From the NCBI RefSeq assembly GCF_025996515.1, contig NZ_BLRH01000060.1, positions 434,001-498,000 on the forward strand: 64,000 bases of DNA. Direction: 5' to 3'. This stretch comes from Rhizohabitans arisaemae (GTDB lineage Bacteria > Actinomycetota > Actinomycetes > Streptosporangiales > Streptosporangiaceae). The notes beneath the pieces are model-generated. The model was not told the origin of the DNA. It worked only from the letters and a program-made list of their open reading frames with translations, and made no database searches. The position numbers and the translations under genes were made by a program. Below, in pieces: positions 24,051-29,199 of the stretch; within the stretch, counting starts at the first letter, position 1; every line of letters begins with the position of its first letter.

Positions 24051-24494
24051 TTATTGGGCGATCTGGCTGATCTCAAACGGCACCGGCTTCTGGGCCTGGT
24101 GCGGGTGGTCTGAGCCTGCGTAGACCTTCAGCTTCCTGGCCATCTTCCGGCCGAGGGAGTTCTTGGGGAGCATGCCCTTGATGGCCTTCTCGACCGCGCG
24201 GTCGGGGCGCTTGGCGAGCAGCTCGCTGTAGGGCACGGAGCGCAGACCACCGGGGTAACCCGAGTGGCGGTACGCCCGCTTCTGCTCAAGCTTGTTGCCG
24301 GTCAGCACAACCTTGTCGGCGTTGACGATGATGACGAAGTCACCGGTGTCGACGTGGGGTGCGAAGATCGGCTTGTGCTTACCGCGCAGCAGCGTGGCAG
24401 CTTGACTGGCCAGCCGGCCGAGCACGACATCCGCGGCGTCGATGACGTGCCACTGACGCTCGATGTCGCCGGGCTTTGGGGTAAACGTGCGCAC
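24051..24494 (-). CDS. rplM: 50S ribosomal protein L13
   Basis: This 147-residue L13 begins [20 protein letters not shown] and contains the family motif [12 protein letters not shown]. The frame is open upstream, but this GTG matches the usual start and has GAAGG 9 nt before it. It is the first gene of the rplM-rpsI-glmM unit. A long leader of about 175 nt separates it from a well-formed promoter. Confidence 0.96.
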
Positions 24495-24670
24495 GGTAGT
24501 TGGCCTTCTTTGCTCGCGTCTTCGGGCTGACGGAATGTGACAGCTCTTTTTCGATCGGCGTCGTGGTCGGTCCGGGACACACGTCACCTCGGACCTTCCG
24601 TCTCCGTTGATCGGAGAAGACGCCGGACGCGCGCCGCGCATCGGTCGCTAAGGACCAACCCGCACACAAC
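24495..24670 (-). promoter_or_regulatory. rplM 5' leader with hairpins
   Basis: About 175 nt lie between the predicted transcription start and the rplM GTG, with no gene. Two stems are visible: TCTCCG/CGGAGA with a 5-nt loop (24601-24617) and GGTCCG/CGGACC with a 15-nt loop (24569-24595). An autoregulatory or attenuation role is inference only. Confidence 0.4.
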
Positions 24671-24678
24671 GAACTAGC

Positions 24679-24708
24679 AGGATACCGGCACTCGCAGACA
24701 TGGGTCAA
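24679..24708 (-). promoter_or_regulatory. sigma-70-type promoter of rplM-rpsI-glmM
   Basis: On the minus strand TTGACC (24703-24708) is followed after exactly 18 nt by TATCCT (24679-24684), a close match to the housekeeping actinobacterial consensus. It is positioned to drive rplM. Confidence 0.75.
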
Positions 24709-24733
24709 AACGAGTGGTCGCCTGATGGCTTCC

Positions 24734-24794
24734 GAGACCGGTCTCCCCGGTCAGTGTACCGGTGGGAGACCGTCCTGGGGCTCATCCGAGCCCC
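24734..24794. repeat. tandem hairpins in the rplM / CAP-protein divergent region
   Basis: A 12-bp palindrome GAGACCGGTCTC (24734-24745) overlaps a bulged hairpin (24740-24771, stems GGTCTCC and CCGGT around a 6-nt loop). A second perfect 7-bp hairpin GGGGCTC-ATCC-GAGCCCC follows at 24777-24794. They could insulate the two divergent transcripts or bind a regulator. Confidence 0.5.
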
Positions 24795-24857
24795 GCCGCA
24801 AGCTAACAACACAGAGAAATTCGGCGACTTCATTGCCTATATATCACGGCACATCTC

Positions 24858-24863
24858 TATATT
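24858..24863 (+). promoter_or_regulatory. -10 box of the CAP-domain gene
   Basis: TATATT lies in an unusually AT-rich stretch 10 nt before the ATG at 24874. TTGCCT at 24833-24838 could be a -35 with a 19-nt spacer. The transcript would have almost no leader. Confidence 0.45.
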
Positions 24864-24873
24864 TAAGTCCGCT

Positions 24874-25644
24874 ATGTGGCAGACGAAGCGCTTCCGGAAA
24901 ACCGGGCATAGATCACACCGCCTGGTCCACTTCGTCGTGGTCATATCCCTGGGAGCCGTTCTCGCGGTCTGCTACGGGCTCTACCAGCAGGCCCAGGCTC
25001 CCCGGCAGACAGCGACCCTGCAGTTTCACAAGGCGGGGCCCAAACCGTCGACCGCACCACCCAAGCGAGAGCTTTCCCCGCTCACCAGAGTGGTACGGCC
25101 CCGTACGGCCGAGGCGCCCGCCACCGGTCCCGACCGAACACCCGCCGACCAACCCGAAGACCCCCGGGTCGTCCTCGACGGCCGCTCCCTCGCGGACGGC
25201 GGCCAAGGCGGCGATCCCTCATCCCCGTTCGTCGACCCGGCGGGCGACCCCGCCGCGGAGGAACTCGCCTCCCTGGAGGCGAGGGTGGTCCGTCTCTCCA
25301 ACAACGCCCGGGTCCGCGCGGGCTGCCGCCCCCTGCGAGTGAACCAGCGACTCGCGTACTCCGCCCGCCTGCACTCGGCGGACATGGCGGAGAAGGGGTA
25401 CTTCTCGCACACCTCCCCCGAGGGGCTCACGCCGTGGCAGCGGATGGAGCGCGCGGGCTACCGCAACGGGGGCGCGGAGAACATCGGCCGCGGATACCAG
25501 ACCGCGGACGAGGCGGTACGCAGTTGGATGGCGAGCGCCGTACACCGGAAGAACATCCTCAACTGCCGGCTGCGCGCCATCGGGGTGGGAGTCCACCTCG
25601 GACCGGGCGGACCCTGGTGGACCCAGGACTTCGGCTACAGCTAA
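24874..25644 (+). CDS. membrane-anchored CAP (SCP-like) domain protein
   Basis: This 256-residue protein has a basic cytoplasmic N-terminus, one membrane helix (about residues 17-38) and a Pro/Thr-rich linker of about 90 residues. A C-terminal CAP domain (about 130-256) follows, with signatures GYFSHTSPEGLTPWQRM, AENIGRGYQTADEAV and HRKNILNCRLRAIGVG. CAP domains are found in many secreted proteins of varied function, so the role is open. An in-frame ATG at 24700 would add a poor N-terminus that crosses the hairpin region, so 24874 is preferred. It opens a three-gene plus-strand island inside otherwise minus-strand DNA. Confidence 0.87.
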   Translation: MWQTKRFRKTGHRSHRLVHFVVVISLGAVLAVCYGLYQQAQAPRQTATLQFHKAGPKPSTAPPKRELSPLTRVVRPRTAEAPATGPDRTPADQPEDPRVVLDGRSLADGGQGGDPSSPFVDPAGDPAAEELASLEARVVRLSNNARVRAGCRPLRVNQRLAYSARLHSADMAEKGYFSHTSPEGLTPWQRMERAGYRNGGAENIGRGYQTADEAVRSWMASAVHRKNILNCRLRAIGVGVHLGPGGPWWTQDFGYS

Positions 25645-25688: not shown

Positions 25689-26492
25689 ATGGGTTATCCG
25701 GGCGAGGAGGGCGCACGCGGCCGATCGCACCGCCATCAGGAAGACTGGCGTGCCCCCTCCCGGCGCAGACGCCGCAGCAAGCTACCAATGATCATCGCGG
25801 GGGTGGCGTCCGTCGCCCTCGCCATCGCGGCGGGCGTGCTCGTCGCGCTCAGCGGCGACGAGCAGGCCCCGGCCGCCGCGACCGCCCCGACCACCTCGCC
25901 CACCCCGACCAAGAGCCCCCTGGCGGCCGGGGCGGGCGTCACGGGCGAGTACGGCTTCGCCCAGTCGCGGCTGACCGACCCCCTCCCGCTCGCCCTCGAC
26001 GAGGTCTTCCGGAACAAGAAGATCACCAAGGGCGGGCGGACCTACCTCATGACCGTCCGGCGTCTGGACAAGTCCTGCGCCGGCGTGATGCAGGGGACGC
26101 GCCTCCTCAAAGCGATCAAGGGTGCCGGCTGCACCCAGGTCCTCCGGGCGAGCTTCCAGGACTCCACCGGCAAGATCATCGGCACACTCGGCGTCGCCAA
26201 CCTCAAGGACCTCAAGGCCACCCTCCGGGTTCAGAAGACCCAAGGAGGCACCGACTACCTCAAACCGCTGCCCGGAAAGAAAGCCACGAGCGTGCTCGGC
26301 TCCGGCGAGGCCTATGCCGGAATCTGGAAGCACGGGCATTACGCGGTCTTCGTCTGGTTCGGCTACCAGGACGGCCACCGGCCGACCGCCGCCGAACGCA
26401 AGAAGCTCAACCAGGCCGCCGCCGACATCGCGGAAGGCACCGTCTTCCCGGCGCTGGACTCCCGTTCCCTCACCGGAGCGCGCTCCCGCTGA
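25689..26492 (+). CDS. membrane protein with unrecognised two-cysteine extracellular domain (short paralogue)
   Basis: This 267-residue protein has a basic N-terminus (RRRRRSK), one membrane helix (about residues 33-55), a Thr/Pro linker and an extracellular domain (about 98-255). The domain contains the pair C130 and C148 and aligns with the C-terminal domain of the next gene: ALDEVFRNKKIT against ALTEVFPEKQIT, and VFVWFGYQDGHRPT against VFAYATYSDGHTPS. I do not recognise the fold by name. The cysteines probably form a disulfide. A TAGTCT box 6 nt before the ATG suggests its own leaderless promoter. Confidence 0.8.
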   Translation: MGYPGEEGARGRSHRHQEDWRAPSRRRRRSKLPMIIAGVASVALAIAAGVLVALSGDEQAPAAATAPTTSPTPTKSPLAAGAGVTGEYGFAQSRLTDPLPLALDEVFRNKKITKGGRTYLMTVRRLDKSCAGVMQGTRLLKAIKGAGCTQVLRASFQDSTGKIIGTLGVANLKDLKATLRVQKTQGGTDYLKPLPGKKATSVLGSGEAYAGIWKHGHYAVFVWFGYQDGHRPTAAERKKLNQAAADIAEGTVFPALDSRSLTGARSR

Positions 26493-26545
26493 ACCCCACC
26501 GGATTCGGAAATCCGGATAGTCGCGTGACGATTCACGTCAGCCGA

Positions 26546-26551
26546 TACGCT
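26546..26551 (+). promoter_or_regulatory. -10 box upstream of the long paralogue
   Basis: TACGCT ends 8 nt before the ATG at 26560. Just upstream, TGACG-ATTCA-CGTCA (26526-26540) is an inverted repeat that could be an operator. Confidence 0.4.
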
Positions 26552-26559
26552 TGGCGTCT

Positions 26560-28242
26560 ATGCGTGCCCAGGAGCCGGGGTCCGGACACGACAATCAGGG
26601 TGGGGAGGGACCGGCCACTCCGCCACCGAGCTTTGGTCATCCCCCTTATCCCGGGCCCCCGACAGAGTCCGTTGCATCCGAACCGTCGCACCGGGCCGGT
26701 GAGCCCGCCGGGCCGCCGAGGCCCGGTCACGAGCCGTCCCCGGCAGGCCCGCCCGCCGGCTCCCCCGCCCCGTCGGACTGGACCCCGCCGGAGGGTCACG
26801 GCGACGTCTACGACTGGTTCGAATCCCTGCCGCCGGACGAGGAGCCGCCGCGCTCCAACCGTCCCCGGCCCGGTGAGCTCGGCACGCCGGTCTGGCCGCC
26901 GCGGGCCGACGGCGAACCCGAGCAGGGCCCGCCCACCGACCCGGCGTTGCAGCCGTACGTGCACCAGCCGTCACCCGCGCCCGCCCTCCCGCCGGAGCCG
27001 CCACCCGTCCCGGCCCCGATGGAGCCGACCGCGCACAGCCCGATCATCGCGGGGCCGCCCGCCGCACCGGACCCCGGTCCGCCGCCCCCGGACGCCCCGG
27101 CGCCCGCACCGCACCCGCCCGTCTCCGGATCCGGCCGGCCCCAGAGTCCCGGCCCCACCGGGCCGGAGCCGGTCATCCCCGGCCCGCCCCAATCCGGGCC
27201 CGTGGCCGAGCACTTCACCATGCCCCCGCCCCCCTCCGGCACGGAGCCCGGTGCCCCCGGCCTGCCGAACGCCGACGCCTCCCACCAGGTTCCGGGCCCG
27301 CAGACCCCGCCCGACCCGGTGGAGCCGACGCCGCCGGCCCCGGAGCCGGCGGCACCGATCGCCTTCACGAGCCCGGTGCCGCCCACGCCCACCGAGCCCC
27401 GGCCCCAGCAGCCCGGGCCGCCCCCCACCCAGCCGTTCGACGCGTTCAGCCGCACGACCGCGGTGCCCGCGCTCCCGGAGCCCCCGTCGGGCGAGACGCG
27501 GCGGGCCGCGAGCTCCCGGAAGAAGCTCGTGGTGTGGGCCGGAACCGCAGGGGTCGTGATGATCGCCGCGGCCTCGGTCATCTTCGCCGTCCGGGCGACC
27601 CAGGAGAACACCCCGCCCCGGGCGCAGCCGAGGCCCACCCTGGACGCCGTCCCGCCGCTGCCGACCACCGAGCCGCCGAGCCCCGCCCCGGTCGAGCCCT
27701 CCCCCATCCCCACCGACCGGGTCGACTCCGAACGAACCGATGCGAAGTCCCTGGCGCTCACCGAGGTCTTCCCCGAGAAGCAGATCACCATCGCGGGCCG
27801 CGCGTTCACCCGGGTCCAGACCCAGGTCGACGAAGACTGCGGCAAAGCCGCGATGGGGCCCTTCGCCAAGGCCCTCACCCAGCAGAAGTGCCGCAGGGTC
27901 GTCCGGGCCACCTACGTCGACAAGCGACAGCGCTACGCGGTGACCACCGGCATCGCCGTCCTGCCCACCAAGGAAGCCGCGATCCGCGCGGACCGGGCGA
28001 AGAACCTCAAGAGCAACCTCTGGTTCCGGGGACTGCCGAACCCCGACGACCCCGCCGCCACCCGGGTGAACATCGCCGGAGGCTACGCGGCCGGCATGGT
28101 CTGGGGGCGCTACATCGTCTTCGCCTACGCGACCTACAGCGACGGCCACACGCCCTCGCCCACCGAACAGGACCTCGGCCCGGTGAGCAGCGCGTTCCGC
28201 GACTACACCGCGACCCCCATCGAGAAACGCATCACCGGCTGA
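26560..28242 (+). CDS. proline-rich membrane protein with two-cysteine extracellular domain (long paralogue)
   Basis: This 560-residue protein has about 320 N-terminal residues very rich in Pro, Gly and Ala, with scattered acidic patches (VYDWFESLPPDEE). One membrane helix (about 324-343), a Pro linker and a C-terminal domain (about 395-555) paralogous to that of the preceding gene follow. The cysteine pair is C427 and C444, at almost the same spacing as in the short paralogue. A TTG three codons upstream is an alternative start. The disordered N-terminus, if cytoplasmic, could be a binding platform (inference). It converges with truA. Confidence 0.8.
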   Translation: MRAQEPGSGHDNQGGEGPATPPPSFGHPPYPGPPTESVASEPSHRAGEPAGPPRPGHEPSPAGPPAGSPAPSDWTPPEGHGDVYDWFESLPPDEEPPRSNRPRPGELGTPVWPPRADGEPEQGPPTDPALQPYVHQPSPAPALPPEPPPVPAPMEPTAHSPIIAGPPAAPDPGPPPPDAPAPAPHPPVSGSGRPQSPGPTGPEPVIPGPPQSGPVAEHFTMPPPPSGTEPGAPGLPNADASHQVPGPQTPPDPVEPTPPAPEPAAPIAFTSPVPPTPTEPRPQQPGPPPTQPFDAFSRTTAVPALPEPPSGETRRAASSRKKLVVWAGTAGVVMIAAASVIFAVRATQENTPPRAQPRPTLDAVPPLPTTEPPSPAPVEPSPIPTDRVDSERTDAKSLALTEVFPEKQITIAGRAFTRVQTQVDEDCGKAAMGPFAKALTQQKCRRVVRATYVDKRQRYAVTTGIAVLPTKEAAIRADRAKNLKSNLWFRGLPNPDDPAATRVNIAGGYAAGMVWGRYIVFAYATYSDGHTPSPTEQDLGPVSSAFRDYTATPIEKRITG

Positions 28243-28305: not shown

Positions 28306-29154
28306 TCAGGCGCCGGGTTCCCGGGGCGGACGCCGGCCGACGGTGAGCGTGCGGATCCCCCGGGTCTCCTCGGCGCGCCGGGCCAGCTCCGCTTCGCCCG
28401 GGTAGCGGACCTCCTCCAGGGTCAGCCCGTGCGCGGGGGCGACGTTGACGGCGGAGTCCCGGACGCAGGCGGCGAGGACCTCGGCGGGCCACCCCGCCGG
28501 CCTTCTGCCGTCGCCCACCGCCAGCATCGCACCGGTCAGCGCCCGGACCATGGAACGGCAGAACGCGTCGGCCACCACCGTCATCCCGGCGATCCCCGGC
28601 GACTCCCAGGACCAGCGCAGATGCTGGAGCTCCCGGATCGTGGTGGCGCCCTCCTTGGGCTTGCAGTAGGCCGCGAAATCGTGTTCCCCGAGCAGCCGTC
28701 CGGCCGCCGCGTTCATCAGGTCCAGGTCGAGGGGGCGGGGGTGCCAGAGCACCTCGTGCCGGCGGAGCGGATCCACCCCGCCCGGCCGGTCGCAGACCCG
28801 GTAGCAGTACCGCCGGGACAGGGCCGAGAACCGGGCGTCGAAGCCCTCCGGGGCGAGCCCGACCCTGTGCACGCGGACATCGGAGGGGAGGACCCCGGCG
28901 AGCCGCCGTACCAATCCCTCCACGGGAGCCTCGGCCGGCACGTCGACGTGGGCCACCTGCCCGCGGGCGTGTACGCCGGCGTCGGTTCGGCCGGCGACGG
29001 TCAGCTGGGGCGCCTCAAGGCGCAGGATCCGGCCGAGCGCCGCTTCGACGACGCCTTGAACCGTCCGGCGGTCCGGTTGCCGCGCCCACCCGGAGAAGTC
29101 GGTGCCGTCGTAGGCGAGATCCAGGCGCAGCCGTACCGACGGGGTGTCCTCCAC
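28306..29154 (-). CDS. truA: tRNA pseudouridine(38-40) synthase TruA
   Basis: TruA isomerises uridines 38-40 in the tRNA anticodon arm. The catalytic aspartate is in [12 protein letters not shown], and the protein starts with the family sequence [18 protein letters not shown]. Several GTG codons could start it; GGGAGGGAG placed 8 nt before the GTG at 29154 decides for this one, giving 282 residues. It is the last gene of the ribosomal alpha operon, after rplQ, but a terminator-like hairpin separates the two. Confidence 0.95.
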
Positions 29155-29199
29155 GCCGTTCACTCCCTCCCGGTGCCGGAGCACCGGCGTAAACACGGA

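Follow-up and report, generated by a model that had tools for sequence, protein, structure and literature searches.

What are the two membrane proteins, here called P1 and P2, that are encoded in tandem between rplM and truA, and what is the two-cysteine domain that they share? We addressed this question in the window, by which we mean the whole 64,000-nucleotide stretch of DNA analyzed, and in the genomes of relatives. The original prediction held that the two proteins have a common C-terminal domain that fits no known family, in a layout that would suit a sensor or scaffold. Our own reading, which we hold at a probability of roughly one half, is that P1 and P2 form the rplM-truA branch within a large, unnamed actinomycete family of single-pass receptors with the PknH fold and would relay through their inner tails. 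What was computed directly comprises the family and its synteny, the topology, the predicted fold, the conserved cysteines, the fusions to kinases and the overlap with mycosin genes. Table 1 lists the features of the locus.

Table 1. Features of the P1-P2 locus, in window positions, and the second tandem pair of the same genome
Feature	Position	Strand	Basis or remark
rplM, conserved left flank; rpsI and glmM beyond	24051..24641	-	names read from ORFs
CAP-domain (PF00188) membrane protein	24700..25644	+	Pfam CAP 2e-22; one membrane stretch
P1, 267 aa	25689..26492	+	ORF; short inner part, anchor, outer domain
P1 membrane anchor, residues 34-52	25788..25844	+	hydropathy
P1 outer domain, predicted PknH fold	25956..26450	+	HMM family, AF2, VIA
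P1 Cys130; Cys148	26076-26078; 26130-26132	+	conserved pair of outer domain
P2, ~560 aa	26560..28242	+	ORF; 563 aa if from TTG 26551
P2 Pro-rich inner part, ~322 residues	26560..27525	+	motifs MR[GA]Q[DE], PSFG, Y[DES]W[FL]
YDWF (Y[DES]W[FL] motif of P2)	26809-26820	+	
P2 membrane anchor, residues 326-344	27526..27582	+	hydropathy
P2 outer domain, predicted PknH fold	27721..28221	+	HMM family, AF2, VIA
P2 Cys430; Cys447	27838-27840; 27889-27891	+	conserved pair of outer domain
truA, conserved right flank; rplQ and rpoA beyond	28306..29196	-	names read from ORFs
Second tandem pair (address B, beside lgt)	L009:5228-7364		window genome

The open reading frames of P1 and P2 were found where the original prediction had drawn them, and the shared domain that it described was confirmed. 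A blastp comparison of the two proteins gave E 2e-19, with 68 of 226 columns identical, anchor counted in; this value and the family recovered by the joint profile (below) rule out chance similarity. The common outer domain spans ~150 residues. All of the motifs noted earlier were present: EVFRNKKIT of P1 aligns with EVFPEKQIT of P2, the two cysteines are spaced 18 residues apart in P1 and 17 in P2, and the late motif near the domain end reads VFVWFGYQDGHRP in P1 versus VFAYATYSDGHTP in P2. The proposed contrast between a short P1 N-terminus and a Pro-rich P2 inner part of ~320 residues also held, the latter being computed at ~322 residues. Judged from sequence, translation of P2 more probably starts at ATG 26560 (MRAQEPGS) than at TTG 26551, because the motif MR[GA]Q[DE] occurs in 44/75 orthologous long proteins and in none of five shuffles. 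GC3 in P2 was 0.90–0.97 in windows over codons 71 to 560 and 0.71 over codons 1–70. Two further motifs of the inner part recur in the long P2 orthologues: PSFG in 66 of the 75 (0–2 in five shuffles) and Y[DES]W[FL] in 29 of them (0 in five shuffles).

The single-pass, inside/outside layout was likewise borne out. P1 and P2 have a single hydrophobic stretch each, and a membrane stretch lay 130 residues or less upstream of the domain in 261 of 262 family ORFs, a set that merges two collections and counts some genomes twice. By charge, the same ORFs were scored as N-in in 214 cases, tied in 29 and N-out in 18, and this majority places the outer domain outside the cell.

We built a profile from the P1 and P2 outer domains alone, then iterated it on the ORFs of family loci; after two sub-threshold second matches were dropped (92 rows to 90), it converged on 90 copies, spread over the window genome and 27 relatives. 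Both cysteines were kept in 90/90 copies of this set and in 91/92 rows of a second set (window and named genomes), so that the expected conserved, unnamed family with its cysteine pair was recovered. Exactly two cysteines were found in 90/92 domains of the second set, P1 and P2 included, and the pair probably forms a disulfide. Matches occurred in 29 of 41 genomes searched, window genome counted, and the domain was present in 27 of 28 relatives of the same order. The match in G038 covers anchor and linker only (residues 9–82) and was left out of the family set; the L092 region was searched and no domain was found there, and tblastn of P1 alone against the genome contigs gave no match. When the first 12 or 18 candidates per genome were scored, at least 83 of 296 genomes in a class-wide survey matched, Streptomyces-like genomes among them, as did at least 8 of 198 genomes in a phylum sample, all of the same class. 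(The labels Streptomyces-like and Mycobacterium-like rest on genome size and gene content; Streptosporangiales names come from the named-locus search.) The window genome itself holds nine copies. By sequence, the domain of P1 and P2 matches no Pfam or NCBIfam model over the cut-off, and the family is unnamed.

At the window locus, a CAP-domain gene, P1 and P2 run co-directionally on the plus strand, separated by 44 bases and by 58 or 67 bases, and rplM/rpsI/glmM and truA/rplQ/rpoA all lie on the minus strand. The CAP gene probably opens the cluster, and its translation may in fact begin downstream of 24700. Its product also matched YkwD (106.4 bits versus a cut-off of 171) and the divisome lipoprotein DalA (63.8 bits versus 200), both below the cut-off. 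We surveyed the neighbors in named Streptosporangiales loci, the best 80 of 176 relatives from a search with rplM-truA copies; the query being made of such copies, these loci are biased towards the rplM-truA address. Gene rplM was seen in 78/80 and truA in 74/80, and both flanks were visible in 72. In the neighbor survey suggested at the outset, all 72 of these loci hold two copies of the domain, and 69 hold the CAP gene. The motif MG[YF]PG[DE] was present in 55 of the 80 first-position proteins, which backs the P1 start. Eight further loci, four each from f16 (Streptomyces-like) and f47, have one copy beside rplM (8/8), with truA on its other side in six; L303–L305 were scanned for domain and reference genes only.

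Most copies in relatives sit at three fixed addresses. Address A lies between rplM and truA; address B is beside lgt, with tandem pairs in 15/16 loci; and address C adjoins moeZ, with domain genes and mycosin-type subtilases in alternation. In the window genome there are a pair at A, a pair at B, three copies at C, one domain-mycosin pair (L011) and a diverged ninth copy on a kinase (L291). In four genomes (G004, G005, G009, G012) an S8 peptidase match was found ~7–11 kb from the lgt pair.

A tree of 112 rows, from which L288, L289 and L290 (<35 bits) and also L279, L280 and L283 (domain genes missed by the gene caller, though detected in the overlap survey) were left out, resolved several groups. 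Address-B copies grouped together (99/97), as did the short A copies with some single copies (99/97), and the long A copies fell together with single A copies from other genera (98/95). The mycosin-linked copies formed one clade (100/100; 25 from C and L011, six from f16 and f6) spanning families f1, f16 and f6. Copies from f3 and f66 stood apart, and address and clade disagree in places. Because P1 and P2 each have their own orthologues across the order, they are not the product of a recent duplication.

We modeled both outer domains with AlphaFold, which gave a pLDDT of 95.7 and pTM of 0.91 for P1 (92-row alignment) and a pLDDT of 91.5 and pTM of 0.88 for P2 (56-row alignment); the alignments share rows, and the predictions are not fully independent. 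Foldseek returned no match of the P1 model at E <= 1e-3. VIA-align, which re-ranks Foldseek's own list only, placed the extracellular domain of PknH (4esq) first for both models, at Z 8.6, 4.2 A and 137 aligned residues for P1 and at Z 10.8, 3.1 A and 131 for P2. Second was TiME (7cu8, 7cu9), which we take to be Rv3705c (P1: Z 7.4, 4.0 A, 131 aligned; P2: Z 9.2, 3.9 A, 137), and third an Rv0999 orthologue (Z 6.9 and 7.6). MucB (Z 6.4 for P1 and 6.8 for P2) was the first row of non-mycobacterial source, and the lower rows held MucB, RseB and START-like chains at Z 4–7. A best Z of 7–8 is common for models that have no relatives; the P1 score, near this usual background, is therefore weak taken alone, and the P2 score stands clear of unrelated rows. 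The predicted fold thus places the outer domain next to the PknH extracellular sensor domain. The original claim that the domain could not be assigned stands at the level of sequence, where nothing exceeded a cut-off for P1 or P2, and gives way at the level of predicted fold. TiME is reported to have an N-terminal membrane helix, to form rings and to be an outer-envelope tube (PMC11434571). Because a protein of this fold is reported as a tube, the fold is no proof of sensing.

Comparisons with known sequence families gave weaker links. Neither P1 nor P2 matched PknH_C (PF14032) in Pfam at E <= 10, and neither matched DUF7373 (PF24088). In 55 family members, scored without printed cut-offs, the two top-ranked Pfam families, both matched weakly, were DUF7373 in six and PknH_C in four (best 8e-4), the latter being absent from ten members rescanned. 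By hhalign, a rough comparison on a set that keeps L117 and L133 (frames at odds with the listed length), DUF7373 was the nearest profile: the alignment, at 84%, covers 74 columns that begin at the T-x-GVa-x-L-x-d-x-x-a-A stretch and run to a later G-h-Y strand. PknH_C reached 3% over 60 columns, with the first cysteines of both paired. Unlike the present family, DUF7373 shows no conserved cysteine when 21 of its domains are aligned. PDB sequence searches found no relative, the sole match being at chance level (E 1.7), and we found no paper on DUF7373 in the open-licence literature. The match of P1 to CU044_5270 (4e-5, residues 9–77) and similar ones were rejected as mainly anchor and linker; those to TrbK, CwsA, DUF7059 and DsbC_N were weak and unsupported. 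NCBIfam Rv1815 serine proteinase also matched weakly in three of the 55 members (best 1.7e-5), and was absent from ten rescanned.

The likeness to PknH extends to the architecture, with a single membrane pass and the domain outside. Pfam detected no kinase domain and no other output domain in P1 or P2, but kinases carry two of the family's nine copies found in this genome. In the first (L010:7992-10007), a Pkinase domain (6e-46) is followed by a membrane stretch and then the outer domain, and it is this paralogue, rather than P1 or P2, that is a transmembrane Ser/Thr kinase of the PknH receptor type. It has the conserved pair as Cys527 and Cys544, a C-terminal pair (Cys663 and Cys671), and matches of 17.4 and 18 bits to DUF7373, where the cut-off is 27. 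The second (L291:6151-7749) has a Pkinase domain (2.5e-44) and, after it, a divergent form of the outer domain (37.8 bits) that lacks the first cysteine of the pair; its branch is long (3.13) and its place in the tree unsure. No hydrophobic stretch follows the kinase (best window 0.63), and from its sequence this is apparently a cytoplasmic version. The pair is kept outside the cell and lost in this apparently cytoplasmic version, which fits a disulfide, in one case. PknH differs in having two disulfides, and P1 and P2 could form at most one in the domain; neither by this count nor by sequence cut-off is the domain a member of PF14032.

We concluded that the family most probably works like a PknH-type receptor ectodomain. 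For PknH itself, a cleft has been described, and the ligand was unknown at the time of review (PMC3601408, PMC4118811). The outer domain would bind a ligand or a protein partner in the cell envelope, at the window locus perhaps the CAP protein from the gene immediately upstream. The Pro-rich inner tails, which keep short motifs, could act as docking or phosphorylation platforms that relay the state of the envelope inward. P1 and P2 would work together and with the CAP protein, as their common strand, small gaps and conserved order suggest. In paralogues the output would instead be a fused Ser/Thr kinase, or joint work with a co-translated, membrane-anchored mycosin. The early suggestion of a sensor or scaffold fits as a guess; signaling itself is inferred. 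Outside the scope of the original prediction were the paralogues on kinases, the coupling to mycosins and the conserved CAP-P1-P2 order.

The mycosin-linked copies suggest another way to see the family: the domain could be primarily a mycosin partner (chaperone, inhibitor, adaptor or substrate), with the rplM-truA and lgt copies as offshoots that retained the domain and act on different enzymes of the envelope, the CAP protein for example. At address C, L011 and L278, each domain gene is followed by a mycosin-like gene on the same strand. With candidate start codons read from sequence, the mycosin begins 7 bases inside the domain gene in 26/26 distinct cases and 4 bases inside it in all nine cases from f16 and f6 genomes. 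The clade across three families argues for this view, as do the f16 rplM-truA copies, which are its sister (98/81), and the mycosins' D-H-S residues, which could be read in 43 of 49 aligned rows (a total that includes the reference and takes some loci twice; the L082 row may be misaligned). So does a Mycobacterium-like genome (G031) in which EccB, a mycosin match and ORFs of FtsK and WXG size occupy the truA side of the slot. This gene set is ESX-4-like, the latter two ORFs being judged by size and rplM lying beyond the compared stretch. However, no mycosin was found at the window locus or at any of the 80 named rplM-truA loci. The very last residue is a cysteine in 25/25 mycosin-linked domain proteins (L010, L011, L044–L087), with a second cysteine 6–15 residues before it in 24, and the −7 candidate start follows almost automatically from that terminal codon, so overlap and cysteine are not independent evidence. 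Moreover, six mycosins of EccB-bearing genomes (L269–L272, L276, L277) have no domain gene within 1.5 kb on either side; five of them lie ~11 kb or less from EccB. Four further domain genes (L288–L291) have no mycosin within 1.5 kb. Weighing these points, we regard the domain as rather unlikely to be first of all a mycosin partner.

The kinase copy at L010 is followed by three consecutive mycosin-like genes (L010:10001-13672, C28 of the window genome). All three products lack the catalytic Asp and His, two also lack the Ser, and they are apparent pseudoproteases as judged by these residues; L044 and L087 each have one mycosin with similar losses.

A related possibility, that the family supplies the sensory half of a widespread protease-receptor module able to work without type VII secretion, we consider unlikely. 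A PknH-fold receptor would be co-translated with a membrane-anchored mycosin, which would either process the receptor or be kept in check by it; the signal would exit by way of a Ser/Thr kinase or Pro-rich tail, and P1 and P2 with the CAP protein would be the mycosin-free version beside truA. In the window genome, the three mycosin matches above 200 bits each stand after a domain gene, and a family search found no EccB there; EccB was matched in 9 of 21 genomes searched. Judged on EccB, the family in this genome is not encoded with EccB, other Ecc proteins and WXG100 proteins, as a type VII secretion component would be, and MycP (TIGR03921) of that system is the encoded partner of one family branch, not a homologue. 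A Streptomyces-like cluster (L282:310-8475) contains a WXG100 protein, three mycosin-like genes and one domain-mycosin pair; with a pair inside such a cluster, independence from WXG proteins is not general. In the open-licence literature, we found no paper joining mycosin-like with subtilase or Streptosporangiales, and no related one joining moeZ and mycosin.

Returning to the predicted fold, the domain might also be a lipid or glycan carrier or sensor akin to START/Bet v1 and MucB/RseB-type proteins, but the matches to MucB, RseB and START-like chains fall in the common range of Z 4–7, and we find this quite improbable. That the outer domains form TiME-like rings or tubes for passage of protein or lipid across the envelope is very improbable: the second place of TiME for both models, its membrane helix and ring formation, and the hetero-oligomers possible from tandem copies speak for it, but long inner tails and kinase fusions suit it poorly, and no mycomembrane is known from these actinomycetes.

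If the fold holds, many filamentous actinomycetes join the mycobacterial receptor kinases and lipoproteins as carriers of the PknH sensor fold. Mycosins, which have been described as proteases of type VII secretion, gain a co-translated partner in a genome in which EccB was not found. The domain family, order-wide and present in nine copies here, has no Pfam or NCBIfam model that P1 or P2 matches over the cut-off. The PknH fold is known; what would be new is an unnamed family that spreads this fold through filamentous actinomycetes, with one of its branches coupled to mycosins.
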